The notes under the pieces are model-generated. The model made no database searches, was not told where the DNA came from, and saw only the letters and a list, made by a program, of their open reading frames with translations. Shown here piece by piece: positions 17,323 through 47,612 of a DNA stretch of 48,679 bases. Every line of letters starts with the position of its first letter. The stretch's first letter is position 1. Origin of the DNA: Thiotrichaceae bacterium. Its GTDB lineage: Bacteria > Pseudomonadota > Gammaproteobacteria > Thiotrichales > Thiotrichaceae. Location: contig JALXAX010000134.1 in the NCBI GenBank assembly GCA_026991755.1, positions 1-48,679 on the forward strand, given 5' to 3'. The position numbers were made by a program, and so were the translations under genes.

Positions 17323-17351
17323 TTGTGAAAAGTATATTCACACCATAAAAT
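17323..17351 (+). promoter_or_regulatory. Candidate sigma-70 promoter with overlapping inverted repeat
   Basis: TTGTGA (17323-17328) and TAAAAT (17346-17351) are separated by 17 bp, a reasonable sigma-70 match (4/6 and 5/6), 78 bp before the 423-aa membrane protein start. The spacer contains an inverted repeat, TGTGAA-N7-TTCACA (17324-17342), that could be an operator. The spacing is wrong for a standard CRP site (TGTGA-N6-TCACA). Confidence 0.4.
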
Positions 17352-17429
17352 CGTTTTGTCATAATCGACTAAGTAAAATATAACTCAAGGACTGAGGCGG
17401 GGATATTCTAGCCATGTGAGGCAGATACT

Positions 17430-18701
17430 ATGCAGCAATTGTGTGTCCGTTATATTGAAAAAACAGTTCAGTGCTTAATGACTATTGGTCTGTTAGTTAG
17501 ACATTCTTTTTATTCTTTCAAACGTAAGTATTTATATCCTGAAAAATGGTCTTTTTTATTCAGCAATAAAGACTTTGTACTTAGAATAGCGGCTATTCCT
17601 AAAGATCAATCTCATCAAATCATTCGCAACTTCCCACCTCCGGGCTACGGCATACCTACTGGAAAGAAATCTTCGTGTAAGCAACAGCCTAGTAATACTT
17701 ATGCACTTTTTCTTTATCCTGCTGGTATTGCGCTTCAATTTATCATTGTTTGTACCGCTATTTATTCATTTATTCTTCCTGGGCTTATAATGTGGTTATA
17801 TAAAGCATTCGTTCTTTGTGAAGAAAATAAACCTAAGTCAGGTGGTGTTACTAGCTCTTATGACTTGTCTCAAGTTGATTATGTAATCATGTTTATAATG
17901 GGTTTTATATTCCTTTTATTCCTGCTGTTGGTAACTTATCAGTTGACTATTAGCTTGCTTTTTAAGAGAAAAATTCGACCTGTTTTTTCTGAAGTATGGA
18001 AATTATGGCCTGAGTCTCAATACGATTTATTTCTCACAGTTCCTCATTTAGTTAAGGTCAGTAGGGCAGACCGTGAAATGCCAGTGCATAAGTATTGGCA
18101 ACCCGATGAGGCTACGCCCATTGCACATCAATCTTCTGAATATTCTCAAGGTATGAATACCGTTCAGGAGGTATTGCTAAATCTTGCCATTTTTGAATTG
18201 TTTTTTTATAACGATGATGAGAATGATCATGATGAAAAAAATGATAAAGAAAGCGGTGAGCATTCAATCAAGTTGAATAACTGGCTTATATATTATTTTT
18301 CTCCTATCTGGATTAGTTATTTTATTATATTGCTGATGCTATTTATGTATCAGGTTCCCTTTATTGCAGAAGCACTTTATACGGATTTTTTATTGTTTGC
18401 TTTCCCCGCCAATATTATTGCTGCTTCGTTGATTTGGTTGTTTATTTCCGTTTGGTTTGTCTGGAAGCGTATTGATTATTTACGATCTTTACACAAGGAT
18501 GTCAAAGATGGTGTATATCAATCCCATTTAGATCTTGTACCCCCGAAAATTCTTAAAAGTATTACCAGAATACCCCATGAGCAACAAATTCTGGCTGGCA
18601 TTAGGCACCTCCAAAGAGTCCTGAATATTATTCAGATTGTTGCTTTTTCGAACATTTTGTTGATATTGGAAGTCCTCACCGCGTACTCACCAAAAAATTA
18701 A
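17430..18701 (+). CDS. Unknown multi-pass membrane protein (first gene of a two-gene module)
   Basis: 423 aa; family not recognised. Hydrophobic segments lie at about 97-125, 151-173, 288-308, 320-345 and 399-417. The first ~95 residues are basic and include FPPPGYGIPTG. A large loop (about 178-285) separates the second and third segments; it ends in a striking acidic run, NDDENDHDEKNDKESGE (261-277). A segment near 365-395 (PPKILKSITRIPHEQQILAG) looks soluble. Start ATG at 17430 with GAGGC upstream and a candidate promoter at 17323-17351. The 1289-aa gene begins 12 bp after its stop, so the two form an operon. It may anchor or regulate the large soluble partner; that is inference from position only. 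Confidence 0.75.
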   Translation: MQQLCVRYIEKTVQCLMTIGLLVRHSFYSFKRKYLYPEKWSFLFSNKDFVLRIAAIPKDQSHQIIRNFPPPGYGIPTGKKSSCKQQPSNTYALFLYPAGIALQFIIVCTAIYSFILPGLIMWLYKAFVLCEENKPKSGGVTSSYDLSQVDYVIMFIMGFIFLLFLLLVTYQLTISLLFKRKIRPVFSEVWKLWPESQYDLFLTVPHLVKVSRADREMPVHKYWQPDEATPIAHQSSEYSQGMNTVQEVLLNLAIFELFFYNDDENDHDEKNDKESGEHSIKLNNWLIYYFSPIWISYFIILLMLFMYQVPFIAEALYTDFLLFAFPANIIAASLIWLFISVWFVWKRIDYLRSLHKDVKDGVYQSHLDLVPPKILKSITRIPHEQQILAGIRHLQRVLNIIQIVAFSNILLILEVLTAYSPKN

Positions 18702-18713
18702 TAAGGCACTACC

Positions 18714-21700
18714 ATGACATTAAAGTATTCAGATAACCTTTATCTACTCTCAGTTATCGATATTGTTGATCGCTATGATATTATTTTGCTGGAAGTGCGT
18801 CATCTACAGAAAATTATTATTGATGCCTTACATGCTCCTACCTTATTTTTGCCATTACGACGTGAGGAAAAATACATTTTCGGTGGATGGCTGGATGAGA
18901 AAAATGGTGAGTATCAAAACATAATAAGCCATGAAAAGGACTTTGCTAAAGTCGCAAGCTTGTGTATTACACGTTACCCCTCTCCTGATACAGCAGTCAG
19001 GTTTATTACAGAGACCTCGCGAGAAGAATTACTCAAACAAGATATAGATATGATGGGTAAGCTTAAACGTTATATAGGTCATTTATGGGCGGGAGATTTA
19101 TGGGTAGGGAGTGAGCGTATTCACTATCACGCGTTACGCGCATTACAGGTGCTTAAACAACAGATTATTAGGGATAAGCTCATTTTCCTATCAGAAGCAC
19201 ATGATGCCGGTATTGTAAAAGTTCCAGGAGCTAAAAAAAACCGCTGTAAAATGTCGTTGATGATATTAAGGCGAGGTGTTCTAAATCGTATGAATGGCTA
19301 TATACGTGTGTTCAGAACACATCAACAGCAATTTGGAAAGTCTCTGGACTTTGGCCTGCAAAGTTATCCAAGGCCAGGTATAGAACGTCGCCGTGATATT
19401 GGTATTTATAATGATTTCTTAGCAAATAGAACTCACGATTTGCATAAGGATATGCAGCATTTCATCAAGTCATTCTTAGACCCTGCTGATGTAGCAAAAA
19501 AAGAGAGCCTAGGTTGGCCCATTGTGTTGCATGGGTGGTCTCAATCCCCCAGTGTATCGGGTTCACAACTGTACGATGATGTGGGGAGGAGCTTACGTGA
19601 AAATGGCGAGAAAAATGAGGATGGTTCAGCGTTCATGCCACAACATGTTAGCTATGTTGATACCAGCTTTTGGTCACCCGACAGACCAGATTTACAGCCG
19701 TTAGTGGCTAAATATGTGGCAGAGTCATTGGCTAGAAATTACTTGGGTAAGATCAACGAACAGTACCTGTCTAATCATACGGATGACTTTGCAAACCTAT
19801 TAGCAGAGTTAAACGCTGTAGTAACGAGCTTTGTTAGAAATACACCTGAGTTTACCGCACAAAAAGACGCGTATCGAAATTTGGTGAATAAACATTTATC
19901 CATAGATTTTCTTGCCTCAACCGTTAAAGGCATTGCCTATTTATATGCTGAGTTTTTGTCTATTGTGGGAGAAGGGCTGGAAGATCAACTGCGTACAACC
20001 GATGGTTTTATAAAGCTAGAAATGCTGGCTGATCTTGAGGATGGCATTAAGAATTATGAGGATACTTTTGTTTGGTACTTTCGTTTAAGACTGACGAGTT
20101 TTTGGTTAGAAAAGGTCATCCATTCTCATTGCAGTACGCTGGATAAGGTTGTTCTAAAAGGCTCTCGGCAGGTGTGTGATGATCTCCTTGATTTTCTGGA
20201 TGAAAACCTGGCCACCACTCATGGAAAGGCATCAGATAAACAGCAAGTGATGGGTGTGTTATGGAAAGCACTCGCAGAAAAAATGGAATACTGTATCGGT
20301 CGTCACGTTTTTGTTAGAAAAGCAAAGCAATGGAGAAAGAAGCGCAGTGATGATACCTGGTGTGAAAAGGAATTAAAGCCAGGAGAGAAACGGTTTCATC
20401 GTTCAACCATTCGATTTGATGTGCGATTACAGAACTTTATGTTTGAAGGTACGTTGAAACAAAAATCTCAAGCTTCTCATAAGCCTATTATTGATGAGAG
20501 TGAGCTTGACCAGTCAAGTAGCGATACTGATAGTAGCCTGAGTATCAAAGAAAAACTATACGCTGATTTTTATGATGTCTACGGTTTGAAGGTGCAAAAA
20601 AATACAGACCCATTGAATACTGAAAATAAGTATCGACATCCACGATGGTTGTATCGACATTTGCATCAAATCCCTTTTCAGTGTGCGATATTAAGAAGTA
20701 TTGATCTGCTTGGCTATCACCCTCAAGAAGAGACTATAGCTTCCGCTCTACCGTGGAGACGTAAGGTCGAAGCAAAACCACGTACACCCGAAGGACGTAA
20801 GCGCCGGCCATATAAATGGCCAGAGTTTATCGACGAAATTCATACTGATATGAGCTTAGGGCGTGAGAAGTTTGCACTTGGTCTTGAGTTTTATACATGG
20901 AGTAGGGAGTCTCCACGAGATCGTTTAGGGTTATGTAATAACCTGATTGTCTTTATTTTACCTCAGTTGAGTGATGCACTGGAGGTGAAGAAGCATCTGG
21001 AGGATTGGTTGCGGGGTGAAGAAAATCTTGAAATTAACACCCCTAAAGCGGTTAGAGATATAGCTACTGATTTAACTAATAGCCGTTTGAAAGATTTTTA
21101 TTATAAGGATGATCATTTATTTAAGACGGGAGCAGAAAGCATTAACCGTGCTTTTTCATTGATTAAGTCTGGAAGTTGTAAGAAAACCAGAAGGCTCGAG
21201 CAGTTAGCCGGTTATAAACTAAAAGAGCTATTAGCTATTTATGAAGAATATATTGCTAAACCTTATGTGAATGAGGATGCTGGATATGTGAAGTTAAATA
21301 TTTTATTGGCGCTGGGTGCTTATCTTAAAATCCGTGCTAATACTGAGAAAAAAGCGTTTTATAAGTTAGTACTACAAGGGTTTAACAATGCTTCAAAAGA
21401 AAGTGATTTACCTGAACGCATCCCTCCTGTGATGTTATCACGTGCCGTACTTACGAATTATCATTCTGTGGCTGATCCTTATGCAGTATTGGATAAAAGT
21501 GTGAATAAGCAGTTTTTAGAACAGAAAATGCCAAACTACTACGGGTATAACGTAGAAACTTTACATCACGGTATAACATTAGGTAATTGGACTTGTCCCA
21601 ATATACCCCCTGATAAAACAGATAATGAAATGTCCGATGCTGATTGTAATCACCATCAGCACATTGAAACAACAGAAGAGGTAGGTAGGTTTCACACCAT

Positions 21701-22583
21701 TCTTGGTCGTTATGATATGGTGGGTTTTGTACCTGCCAGAATGCCATGCAAATGTAAGATTCCCAGTTTTGACTGTGCGATGGATGAGTCAGAGACTTTT
21801 ATTAATCATTTCACTCGACGAGAAATTGCACTTCCCGTTAACGTACAGCCTGTTAACCCATCAGAAAAAACTATGTTTGGCATTATATCGGTGTCACTAC
21901 AACGTCGTGCGATGCGCTTGAGCTTATTATATCGAATCATGAGTGCGATCAATCATGATGAAGCTTCTGGCCCACAACCCAAGATGGAACAAAGCATCCA
22001 AAACATAGCTACCAAATATAGCGATACCATACATATTCAAGGTTATATCACCGATGGCTGGGGAGACTTTCTATTGGTTTTCCAAACCATTAATGGTGCT
22101 AATGTTAAAGGCGAAGAGCTGGTGAACGATATTTTTGTGCTTCAGCAAATGCTCTATGAGGACTTTATGGTGGATAGAACCGAGCTGATTTATACACCTA
22201 GATGTATTGATTATATTGCTAGAGCAGAGGGTTATGATTTTTCTATCACCGTGAGAATGATGGAAGATAGAAAATTAGAAGCCAGTGTTGAAGACTTCAT
22301 TAATGCCTTTGAGCAGAATGCTAGTGACTTGAATAAACGAGTTCCTGAAATCATCGATAGTAAAATCTGTCAGACACCTGGTAGAACGGATCTTACGATG
22401 AATTTTACGATTAAAAAAGGTAGTAGACCTGAAGGGTTGTATAACAATATCCTACTGTGGATGTCTGAAATGAAGATGGCTAAAAGTACCTGGTATTCCG
22501 ACAGTATGTCTATGTTGGGTAAGGTTGAGACTATTATCGAACGAAGCAATATTGAACAAAACATTGAAACAAACAATACTTAG
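18714..22583 (+). CDS. Unknown 1289-aa soluble protein (second gene of the two-gene module)
   Basis: Very large protein with no signal peptide, no convincing membrane helix and no P-loop, nuclease or protease motif that I can see. The N-terminal ~130 residues are hydrophobic and aromatic (DNLYLLSVIDIVDRYDIIL). The middle has basic stretches, for example KPRTPEGRKRRPYKWPEF near 690, and a Ser/Asp-rich linker near 590-615 (DQSSSDTDSSLS). Residues about 955-1025 are rich in Cys and His: WTCPN, DADCNHHQHIE, then LGRYDMVGF, PCKCKIPSFDC. That pattern could bind metal. The C-terminal ~200 residues look like an alpha/beta domain (GWGDFLLVFQTINGA, FSITVRMMED). It follows the membrane protein by 12 bp. 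No function can be assigned. Confidence 0.75.
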   Translation: MTLKYSDNLYLLSVIDIVDRYDIILLEVRHLQKIIIDALHAPTLFLPLRREEKYIFGGWLDEKNGEYQNIISHEKDFAKVASLCITRYPSPDTAVRFITETSREELLKQDIDMMGKLKRYIGHLWAGDLWVGSERIHYHALRALQVLKQQIIRDKLIFLSEAHDAGIVKVPGAKKNRCKMSLMILRRGVLNRMNGYIRVFRTHQQQFGKSLDFGLQSYPRPGIERRRDIGIYNDFLANRTHDLHKDMQHFIKSFLDPADVAKKESLGWPIVLHGWSQSPSVSGSQLYDDVGRSLRENGEKNEDGSAFMPQHVSYVDTSFWSPDRPDLQPLVAKYVAESLARNYLGKINEQYLSNHTDDFANLLAELNAVVTSFVRNTPEFTAQKDAYRNLVNKHLSIDFLASTVKGIAYLYAEFLSIVGEGLEDQLRTTDGFIKLEMLADLEDGIKNYEDTFVWYFRLRLTSFWLEKVIHSHCSTLDKVVLKGSRQVCDDLLDFLDENLATTHGKASDKQQVMGVLWKALAEKMEYCIGRHVFVRKAKQWRKKRSDDTWCEKELKPGEKRFHRSTIRFDVRLQNFMFEGTLKQKSQASHKPIIDESELDQSSSDTDSSLSIKEKLYADFYDVYGLKVQKNTDPLNTENKYRHPRWLYRHLHQIPFQCAILRSIDLLGYHPQEETIASALPWRRKVEAKPRTPEGRKRRPYKWPEFIDEIHTDMSLGREKFALGLEFYTWSRESPRDRLGLCNNLIVFILPQLSDALEVKKHLEDWLRGEENLEINTPKAVRDIATDLTNSRLKDFYYKDDHLFKTGAESINRAFSLIKSGSCKKTRRLEQLAGYKLKELLAIYEEYIAKPYVNEDAGYVKLNILLALGAYLKIRANTEKKAFYKLVLQGFNNASKESDLPERIPPVMLSRAVLTNYHSVADPYAVLDKSVNKQFLEQKMPNYYGYNVETLHHGITLGNWTCPNIPPDKTDNEMSDADCNHHQHIETTEEVGRFHTILGRYDMVGFVPARMPCKCKIPSFDCAMDESETFINHFTRREIALPVNVQPVNPSEKTMFGIISVSLQRRAMRLSLLYRIMSAINHDEASGPQPKMEQSIQNIATKYSDTIHIQGYITDGWGDFLLVFQTINGANVKGEELVNDIFVLQQMLYEDFMVDRTELIYTPRCIDYIARAEGYDFSITVRMMEDRKLEASVEDFINAFEQNASDLNKRVPEIIDSKICQTPGRTDLTMNFTIKKGSRPEGLYNNILLWMSEMKMAKSTWYSDSMSMLGKVETIIERSNIEQNIETNNT

Positions 22584-22795: not shown

Positions 22796-22827
22796 CCGTA
22801 GAGACGTTGCATGCAACGTCTCTACGG
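22796..22827. repeat. 32-bp perfect palindrome (copy 1)
   Basis: CCGTAGAGACGTTGCA followed by its exact reverse complement. A second copy is at 42969-42998. The core AGAGACGTTGCATGCAACGT is a short palindromic repeat I have seen reported widely in cyanobacteria and other bacteria. It probably acts as a REP-like unit. It lies between a MITE and the rhodanese gene. Confidence 0.8.
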
Positions 22828-22965: not shown

Positions 22966-23718
22966 ATGAGTTATACCAATCTGCTTAGGTCTTTTATTTT
23001 CGGCAGTCCAAGTCCAGAACAACGCAAGAGACATCAAAAGCCCGTCAACATAACAGCGGACTTAAAAAGTGTGGTGGTTCGCCATAAAAAGCACAATATG
23101 TTGATAAAACGTGAGGCTGATAATAACGCTAGAGTGTCTGATATGTTCAGCCGAACGTCTCGGCCTTGCCCTCCTTTTTGTATACAGCCTATGCACGCTG
23201 CCGATGGTGTTGAGACTATTGGTGAGCTCGAAATATTAGACTATTTAGCGGCTACAACCAGTAATGGGGATGATGAAAGTGATGTGCTATTGATCGATTC
23301 TCGTATGCAAAGCTGGGTAGATAAAGGCACGATTCCATGCTCTATTAATATTCCGTGGACGGAGTTATCACCTAGTCAAGGTGCCAAAACTAAAGGCATC
23401 ATGGCAGTGTTAAAACATCATTTCAACGCGCCTTTGGCAAAAGGGTATGAAGATATTGATGTGGAAGTTGTTGACGCCGCAATAGTTAAAGGAGATGTGG
23501 CTGAGTTGTTCGATTACTCAAATGCTAAGCTTTTAGTGCTTTTTTGTAATGGTACGTGGTGTGGTCAAACTTCTGAAAGTATCAAGTCATTGATTACCTT
23601 TGGATACCCCGCAGAAAAGATAAAATACTTTAGAAATGGCATGCAAGGCTGGGTAAATCTAGGCTTAACAACCATTTCGAAGCAAGATGAAGCATCTACT
23701 GAGTGTAAGATTAAATAA
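22966..23718 (+). CDS. Cytoplasmic rhodanese-like protein with CPPFC motif
   Basis: 250 aa. Rhodanese-domain core: LLIDSRMQSWVDKGTIPCSINIPW pattern near 108-131, an active-site loop CNGTWCG with Cys194 as likely sulfur-carrying nucleophile and Cys199 beside it, then a C-terminal YFRNGMQGWVNLGL. Before the domain is TSRPCPPFCIQP (Cys68, Cys72), shared with the exported paralogue at 46905-47612, to which it aligns over almost its full length. Here the signal peptide is replaced by about 30 basic residues (SPEQRKRHQKP), so it should stay in the cytoplasm. Rhodaneses move sulfane sulfur; the specific donor and acceptor are unknown. The Shine-Dalgarno is weak. Confidence 0.85.
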   Translation: MSYTNLLRSFIFGSPSPEQRKRHQKPVNITADLKSVVVRHKKHNMLIKREADNNARVSDMFSRTSRPCPPFCIQPMHAADGVETIGELEILDYLAATTSNGDDESDVLLIDSRMQSWVDKGTIPCSINIPWTELSPSQGAKTKGIMAVLKHHFNAPLAKGYEDIDVEVVDAAIVKGDVAELFDYSNAKLLVLFCNGTWCGQTSESIKSLITFGYPAEKIKYFRNGMQGWVNLGLTTISKQDEASTECKIK

Positions 23719-42968: not shown

Positions 42969-42998
42969 GTAGAGACGTTGCATGCAACGTCTCTACGG
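42969..42998. repeat. Perfect palindrome (copy 2 of the 28-32 bp repeat)
   Basis: GTAGAGACGTTGCA and its reverse complement make a 28-bp perfect palindrome at 42969-42996, with two further bases shared with the copy at 22796-22827. It lies between gltD and the AAA protein, 55 bp after the gltD stop. No T-tract, so it is not an intrinsic terminator. Confidence 0.8.
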
Positions 42999-46904: not shown

Positions 46905-47612
46905 ATGAAAGTAACAAACGTACTTGCAATTTCATTAGTTGCAACAGGGCTATTTCTAACAGCAGGTGCTCAGGCTAAAGAGTCAAAGCCTGTTGGAATT
47001 ACACCTGATATTAGCAGTGTAACTGTTATGCATAATGGTAAAGAAGCTAAAATTTCACGTAACCAAGATAATGGAAATACAGTTATTCCAGCATTCGCAA
47101 AGACATCTCGTCCTTGTCCTCCATTTTGTATTCAACCTATCAAACTTGCAGAAGGTGTTGAGACAGTTGGTGAAGTAGAAGTTATCGATTACGCAAAGAA
47201 AATGAGCGATGGCGACAAGAGCATCATGTTAGTTGATTCGCGTACACCAGACTGGGTTGCTAAAGGAACTATCCCTAGCGCTGTAAATATATCTTGGGTT
47301 GAATTAACGCCTAAGAAAGGTGCAACTACTGAAGGAATCATCAAAGTAATGACGGAGAAATTTGGGGCAAAACTTACAAAAGGTGTGACTGATGTTGATG
47401 TAGATGAAGCTATTGCAGATAGCGACACCAGCAAAGTATTTGACTACTCTGGTGCTAAGACATTAGTTATGTTCTGTAATGGCATGTGGTGTGGGCAGTC
47501 TCCTGCAAGTATCAAAGCTTTATTAAAGTTTGGCTACCCAGCAGACAAGATCAAATACTACCGTGGTGGTATGCAGGATTGGGAAATCCTTGGATTATCT
47601 ACAGCTAAGTAA
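46905..47612 (+). CDS. Exported rhodanese-like protein with CPPFC motif
   Basis: 235 aa. The signal peptide covers about 1-24 (ends AQA), so it should be periplasmic. The mature protein has TSRPCPPFCIQP (Cys71, Cys75), then a rhodanese domain with LVDSRTPDWVAKGTIPSAVN near 109-128, CNGMWCG (Cys191 and Cys196) as active-site loop, and YYRGGMQDWEILGL at the end. It is a full-length paralogue of the cytoplasmic protein at 22966-23718. Shine-Dalgarno AGGAG precedes the ATG. Probably handles sulfane sulfur in the periplasm, perhaps linked to sulfur oxidation; that link is inference. Ends before a strong terminator. Confidence 0.87.
   Translation: MKVTNVLAISLVATGLFLTAGAQAKESKPVGITPDISSVTVMHNGKEAKISRNQDNGNTVIPAFAKTSRPCPPFCIQPIKLAEGVETVGEVEVIDYAKKMSDGDKSIMLVDSRTPDWVAKGTIPSAVNISWVELTPKKGATTEGIIKVMTEKFGAKLTKGVTDVDVDEAIADSDTSKVFDYSGAKTLVMFCNGMWCGQSPASIKALLKFGYPADKIKYYRGGMQDWEILGLSTAK

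Follow-up and report, generated by a model that had tools for sequence, protein, structure and literature searches.

Thermolysin and neprilysin carry an ExxxD motif, and among the gluzincins the nearest layout to that of the proteins described here is found in peptidase family M13 (neprilysin, Zmp1), where HExxH is followed by ExxxD. The subject of this report is a pair of open reading frames (ORFs), ORF1 and ORF2, in a 48,679-nucleotide stretch of DNA from a Thiotrichaceae bacterium (contig JALXAX010000134.1 of assembly GCA_026991755.1), hereafter the window; in relatives of the large ORF2 protein ExxxD begins 53-70 residues past the start of HExxH. The spacing is 61 residues in two M13 proteins whose ENxAD motif was located by script, and a table excerpted from a review of pseudopeptidases lists “HExxH 58 E” for neprilysin (PMC11266112). 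Excerpts of the same review also describe metallopeptidase-type proteins kept after the loss of their zinc ligands and general base, namely plant FtsHi and Drosophila Gone early. A further system of interest is the VMAP/FtsH ternary conflict systems, which according to excerpts of their description combine a zincin peptidase with small precursor modules and make use of inactive enzyme domains as well (PMC7159879).

Set beside these systems, the ORF1-ORF2 pair looks like the pseudoprotease variant of a broader family of membrane-linked HExxH proteins lying outside the libraries searched. Unlike M13, the family shows no profile similarity past the HExxH helix, is partnered by a membrane gene and ends in ferredoxin-like units, and unlike the active gluzincins the window copy is devoid of the H, E, H and third ligand. 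It also differs from FtsHi and Gone early, which belong to other families, in that bacteria have its intact as well as its degenerate form, each paired with a multi-transmembrane protein. As in the VMAP/FtsH ternary systems, a zincin-like peptidase stands beside a small fast-evolving protein, whereas no vWA, MoxR, radical-SAM or AP-ATPase was present among the scanned neighbours; the KAP ATPase family PDC-S20 of PADLOC is shared by one locus, the split ORF2 of genome G526, and was not among the scanned window genes. Among the titles listed in searches of an open-access library none describes the pair, which does not show its absence from print, and it is not described in the passages of PMC7159879 and PMC10907252 consulted.

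Five hydrophobic segments are found in the 423-amino-acid membrane protein encoded by ORF1 (17430..18701) and none in the 1289-amino-acid protein of ORF2 (18714..22583); both ORFs are supported by the ORF call and by homologues. Like all features of the two genes given below they lie on the forward strand, and the ORF1 stop at 18701 and the ORF2 ATG at 18714 leave a gap of 12 bp. The initial annotation, made from the letters of the window, had placed the pair exactly there, with the same spacing and ORF2 size, and its remark that nothing in the pair matches a known family agrees with the absence of any curated Pfam, NCBIfam, PADLOC or PHROGs family for either protein. Both ORFs were without a match in Pfam, PADLOC and PHROGs at E-values up to 10 and without a core-protein match in PADLOC 2.0.0; ORF2 had no match in NCBIfam and no meaningful one among PDB sequences, and a hit of ORF1 to NCBIfam MusI (E 0.0073, 16 bits vs a cut-off of 160) was taken as noise. 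The source contig is contig 134 of a 3.66-Mb assembly, and ORF2 was found there once.

The central observation is a protease signature that is intact in relatives of ORF2 and degenerate in the window. Eight of the 15 ORF2 proteins compared, from seven genomes, carry H, E, H and E at the positions aligned with window residues 333, 334, 337 and 394, and all eight HExxH-bearing relatives have ExxxD at the aligned place. In the alignment, the proteins of Thiosymbion, G235 and G017 read PERPDLQ and then AHEVAH, while more distant relatives carry HEVAH, HELGH, HELGH and HECAH. The window copy retains the conserved PDRPDL (residues 322-327; 19677..19694) just ahead of the former zinc helix, followed by KYVAE (residues 333-337; 19710..19724) where the eight relatives have HEVAH, HELGH or HECAH, and by HLSID (residues 394-398; 19893..19907) in place of ExxxD, of which D398 is kept in 15/15 proteins. 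Its five key positions thus read K, Y, E, H, D vs H, E, H, E, D in the relatives; no HExxH occurs anywhere in the protein, and the third-ligand E is absent. The other six degenerate rows, all from Thiotrichaceae, read KEVAY, HEVAN, HEIAD, NPIAK, HEIAK and REVAV at this site, and among all seven the second H is found in none and the E of ExxxD in one (L041). From these residues it follows that the window copy is without the whole site and its group without a complete one. HExxH and the E of ExxxD are either both there or not both in 14/15 ORF2 proteins (a truncated ORF2, L060, was left out of these motif counts). Judged by its residues, the signature borne by the eight relatives is of the gluzincin zinc-protease type, HExxH plus ExxxD, and the assignment as “zincin” is based on this signature and its joint presence or absence, not on a fold match. 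The earlier statement that the large protein has no recognisable catalytic motif was therefore right for the window copy and wrong for the family.

In the tree of the N-terminal half, whose root is not known and whose alignment kept the motif columns, a single branch sets the seven degenerate Thiotrichaceae rows apart from all others (100/99; 200/200 bootstrap trees), so that a single loss of the protease site in this group seems likely. The N-half has stayed well conserved in the degenerate rows: identity to the window is 37-44% over the N-half in the six other degenerate Thiotrichaceae rows and 29-37% over the C-half in five rows.

The N-half of ORF2 (about residues 1-545; 18714..20348) is helical in an AlphaFold model and metallopeptidase-like by its motif, its boundary being approximate. 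In the model, built for residues 1-600 from nine sequences with a mean pLDDT (predicted local distance difference test score) of 70, both degenerate sites sit inside helices (325-344 and 378-405). The division of ORF2 into two halves is supported by the second copy in genome G526, where the N-half and C-half are encoded as separate genes of 750 and 593 aa. The C-half model (residues 590-1289, eight sequences) is weak, with a mean pLDDT of 58, and shows near its end two beta-alpha-beta-beta-alpha-beta units that, by this model and its structural matches, would be ferredoxin-like (dimeric alpha+beta barrel-like; about residues 1052-1277, 21867..22544) and that include TDGWGD and EDFMVDRTE. A Foldseek search with the C-half model returned nothing at E<0.001 (best E 4e-3). 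The structure comparison proposed in the initial annotation was thus carried through with Foldseek for both ORF2 halves, and neither gave a match at that threshold.

Other marks singled out earlier in ORF2 exist but are mostly peculiar to this copy. The basic patch near residue 690 is located at residues 682-698 (20757..20807), in an alignment-defined insert that is mostly window-specific, being missing or much shorter in the other aligned rows. The Cys/His-rich stretch is indeed the maximum of the protein, as the 71-residue interval starting at residue 951 holds 11 C+H vs a mean of 3.1, and yet only C1012 (11/13 rows) and C1014 (10/13 rows) of the nine C/H at 955-1025 are widely shared; both belong to the aligned motif MPCKC (residues 1010-1014; 21741..21755). 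With two of nine shared, a zinc finger or zinc-binding domain at 955-1025 was rejected. The basic patch was likewise rejected as a functional mark, together with the acidic loop of ORF1, as neither is conserved across relatives.

The five-segment membrane protein announced in the initial annotation was recovered by computation, with hydrophobic segments beginning at ORF1 residues 105, 151, 295, 321 and 400. Among nine ORF1 rows, five segments are counted in six, six in L039 and L024, and four in L022, counts that hold at the hydrophobicity threshold used. Lysine plus arginine counts in the six five-segment rows alternate along the chain: 9-17 at the N-terminus, 0-3 in loop 1, 11-20 in loop 2, 0-2 in loop 3, 4-10 in loop 4 and 0-1 at the C-terminus. 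Because of this positive-inside pattern, ORF1 is predicted to have its N-terminus inside and its C-terminus outside, so that the cytoplasmic parts would be the N-terminal region, loop 2 (about 170-294) and loop 4 (about 340-399). The acidic loop noted earlier is present in loop 2 (residues 260-278; 18207..18263) and is not conserved among homologues. In G235 the ORF1 relative is split over two frames (191 and 257 aa; L047 7503-8970), perhaps by a frameshift or an assembly error.

Adjacency of the two genes across genomes had been named as a check, and a multi-transmembrane gene adjoins ORF2 at 12 of the 13 loci with enough contig to judge. At ten loci (the window, G010, G005, G004, G001, G012, G017, Thiosymbion oneisti, G235 and copy 1 of G526) this neighbour was confirmed as an ORF1 relative by alignment or profile; in G656 and G457 it is identified by position and hydrophobic segments (profile E 9.5 and 0.34). 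The sole judgeable ORF2 locus without such a neighbour is the second copy in G526, and the conserved pairing of two proteins unrecognised by the libraries, as earlier supposed, is supported. Within the order, both genes occur in 7 of 10 genomes having either; G038, with ORF2 alone, and G021, with ORF1 alone, are cut off by contig edges, and G003 holds a relic. This relic consists of two adjacent short ORF2 remnants (L048 6988-7197), which match two parts of the G005 protein that lie far apart in its sequence (residues 1060-1110 and 1231-1248). A thioredoxin gene at a distance of about 0.6 kb shares 67.7% identity with the one that adjoins the G005 pair. Since the remnants adjoin a thioredoxin gene like that of G005, the pair was probably lost in G003.

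The pair has a patchy distribution in Thiotrichaceae, Candidatus Thiosymbion and other Pseudomonadota. ORF2 relatives were found in 9/63 genomes of the order, own genome included and one a relic (some genomes are incomplete), in 2/369 genomes of the class sample, own included, and in 6/398 of the phylum sample, a tally that includes the own genome and one weak match later dropped. Follow-up searches around the genomes found gave 1/2 in the order of G235, 3/48 in the class of G526, 1/200 in the order of G656 and, with a profile of mainly intact relatives, 1/369 in the class of G235, the single matches being the centre genomes themselves. The eight named ORF2 loci belong to Thiotrichaceae metagenome-assembled genomes (MAGs), a Cocleimonas MAG, a Leucothrix mucor MAG and two Candidatus Thiosymbion. 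G010, G005, G004, G001, G038 and G012 appear to be identical to L039, L040, L041, L042, L043 and L045 and were each counted once; left out of the counts were G606 (E 4e-4, a 149-aa frame, yet the dropped match inside the phylum tally of 6), a second fragment in G457 and an ORF1 piece of 134 aa from a different contig of G001. A first scan of genome contigs with the single ORF2 protein gave no match. Plasmids gave none to the window ORF2 or to its relatives L059 and L057, viral contigs none to the ORF2 profile, and phage records none to relative L056, the window protein not having been searched there; these searches lent no support to an origin from phages or plasmids, which was set aside.

At eight loci, 20 selected neighbour proteins (19 from Thiotrichaceae, one from G235) were compared with Pfam; 16 have a family, and the only one of a defence kind is a CHAT-domain protein, which was also the only one scanned with PADLOC. 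It lies about 810 bp ahead of ORF1 in G012 (L024 5422-6549; Pfam E 2e-9, PADLOC chat E 1e-12). The HExxH pair of G656 is preceded by Tn7-like genes (L059 918-6712: TniB/AAA, TniQ-TnsD and a weak rve transposase match), and in G526 copy 2 (L057 262-5638) a HELGH protein and a C-half protein are followed by a KAP ATPase matching the candidate defence family PDC-S20 (E 5.8e-97). A concentration in defence islands, the other check suggested at the outset, is thus not seen among the selected neighbours, although two distant relatives do have a mobile-element or candidate-defence neighbour; these two loci hint at a conflict role of the intact systems.

A small charged coil-like ORF, picked by eye for its charge and heptad look, is found near all six judgeable HExxH loci, upstream on the same strand in G017, T. 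oneisti, G235, G656 and G526 copy 2 and divergent in G526 copy 1, and none was seen by eye at five degenerate loci (window, G010, G005, G004, G012). A heptad test gave values below 0.05 for two of the six (L056 0.005, L026 0.01) and above it for the remaining ones (L046 0.09, L059 0.11, L047 0.15, L057 0.18), and it scores unrelated ORFs too, such as the thioredoxin of L021 (0.015). A shared C-terminal tail was not significant (4-mers; 302/2000 shuffles as good). With heptad statistics this weak and the tail motif not significant, a common third gene is treated as a lead only. Upstream of ORF1 the window offers 231 bp for judging such a small ORF.

As for the remaining features of the window, the single candidate promoter proposed earlier does exist as a sigma-70-like site matching 10/12 positions at 17337-17365, ahead of ORF1, but such sites are no commoner in the region than in shuffled sequence (19 observed vs a mean of 19.6), and for this reason it proves nothing. 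A perfect 28-bp palindrome, GTAGAGACGTTGCATGCAACGTCTCTAC, occurs without mismatch at 22798-22825 and 42969-42996, where none is expected by chance; the first copy begins 215 bp past ORF2 and is also listed as terminator-like. Two related rhodanese-like stretches lie at 22966-23718 and 46974-47606 (54% identity over residues 21-237 of the first). As a synteny marker the rhodanese downstream of ORF2 proved of no use, having several matches in 5/6 genomes.

We consider, with a probability of about 0.55, that the window ORF2 is a pseudoprotease scaffold or regulator in a membrane-tethered complex with ORF1. ORF1 would be a membrane platform whose cytoplasmic N-terminal region and loops 2 and 4 offer a docking site for ORF2, and ORF2 its soluble partner, made of a zinc-metallopeptidase-related N-half and a C-terminal pair of ferredoxin-like units that may sense or oligomerise. 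Relatives with the intact signature would presumably bind zinc and cleave proteins, probably as a membrane-tethered regulated protease, often with a small coil-like protein as third component. Other residues stand in the window copy where the zinc histidines, catalytic glutamate and third ligand would be, and the remainder of the domain has been retained along with the membrane partner; the change is presumably one of loss, and the resulting pseudoprotease could bind the former substrate, or hold ORF1 in one state, without cutting. Its biological role may be a dispensable accessory function, perhaps related to conflict. As to the membrane-anchored complex suggested in the initial annotation, the pairing is conserved and the idea plausible, while the physical complex is something that we infer.

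A number of observations weigh against this interpretation. The N-half was not recognised as a peptidase by Pfam or PADLOC even in the intact relatives: a Pfam scan of six of them at E up to 10 gave no M13 line, and the best PADLOC line among ORF2 relatives was capP, which falls on the HExxH helix of L057 with E 0.013. An hhalign comparison with M13 peptidases (eight rows, one of which, L099, is a 249-aa frame without HExxH) aligned 14 columns around HExxH at a probability of 2.6%, and on these grounds membership of M13 was rejected. At E<0.001 the N-half model had no Foldseek match. In favour of the reading, VIA ranks the zinc metalloprotease Zmp1 first for this model (3zuk, Z 5.8, root-mean-square deviation 5.5, 234 residues), but unrelated TTYH proteins tie with it at that Z, and all N-half rows are under Z 6. 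The N-half model is that of the window protein, and blanks from Foldseek and VIA were not counted as evidence. The motif columns were not removed from the N-half tree, and the C-half tree, poorly resolved and built from 15 rows of a slightly different set, fails to unite the degenerate rows: three changes are required on it, and a single one suffices in 6% of bootstrap trees. Nor does the former active helix (330-345) stand out as relaxed: mean pairwise identity over five rows is 0.31 there and 0.46-0.55 in the regions before it, whereas 346-377 (0.29) and 1160-1289 (0.31) are equally low, and we rejected the drop as a sign of released constraint. Degenerate rows keep the HExxH glutamate in 5/7 cases and in 3/7 the first histidine as well, which makes a remodelled activity possible in some of them. 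In G017, ORF1 stands convergent to ORF2.

Several other explanations were weighed against the pseudoprotease reading. The two genes may serve in defence or against mobile elements, ORF1 being the membrane effector and ORF2 the sensor or protease, a view compatible with the pseudoprotease reading, which we regard as possible though not the one to bet on. Patchy presence (9/63), loss with a relic, neighbours mostly differing between genomes, the Tn7-like TniB/AAA and TniQ-TnsD ahead of one relative and the PDC-S20 ATPase after another all speak for it, and they have to be set against the lack of any strong PADLOC match for ORF1, ORF2 or the scanned relatives, the solitary CHAT protein among 20 neighbours, and the blank searches of plasmids (window ORF2, single relatives), viral contigs (profile) and phages (a relative). 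A fuller and decidedly tentative version would be an undescribed Pseudomonadota system acting against invaders, composed of the coil-like protein, a five-transmembrane protein and a cytoplasmic HExxH/ExxxD peptidase with ferredoxin-like sensors, found beside Tn7-like genes or coupled to a KAP ATPase; the Thiotrichaceae would then have converted the protease into a pseudoprotease and lost the small protein that was probably the substrate or trigger of the enzyme. Absence from 54/63 genomes of the order (some incomplete), loss in G003 and presence in distant groups, once after Tn7-like genes, make it improbable that the pair serves a housekeeping envelope function of sulfur-oxidising Gammaproteobacteria, for example as scaffold for a membrane process, even though the window neighbours, which from their translations we take to be Hsp33, DinB, glutamyl-tRNA synthetase and ArgB, and the same thioredoxin gene beside the G005 pair and the G003 relic would suit such a role.

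ORF2 could also be another enzyme, with HExxH incidental and the ferredoxin-like units bearing TDGWGD and EDFMVDRTE active, for example in an oxygenase-like or nucleotide-handling way. No invariant run in a set of six proteins is longer than EDFMVDRTE (residues 1149-1157), one of the units resembles dimeric alpha+beta barrel proteins with Z 9.1 over 93 residues, the best rows being putative antibiotic-biosynthesis-monooxygenase-type proteins, and a C-half ORF weakly matches Cas10d (E 0.0098). Ferredoxin-like units are common, however, so that a shared fold reveals no function, and the likeness comes from the weak C-half model; D1001 of LGRYD is lost in L041, and the concordance of HExxH and ExxxD in 14/15 proteins is hardly expected of incidental residues, all of which leads us to think this reading unlikely. 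Replaced catalytic residues and the G003 relic might finally suggest a decaying pseudogene pair, which is very hard to reconcile with long open frames in five other species, still 34-40% identical to the window copy, and a membrane gene that is still adjacent, and was accordingly disfavoured.

If the pseudoprotease reading is true, one family would contain protease-like members and pseudoproteases alike, each linked to a membrane partner, and the two would provide matched pairs for learning what a pseudoprotease does in bacteria after it has ceased to cut. The pair would also represent a candidate system that is missing from the family libraries used here.

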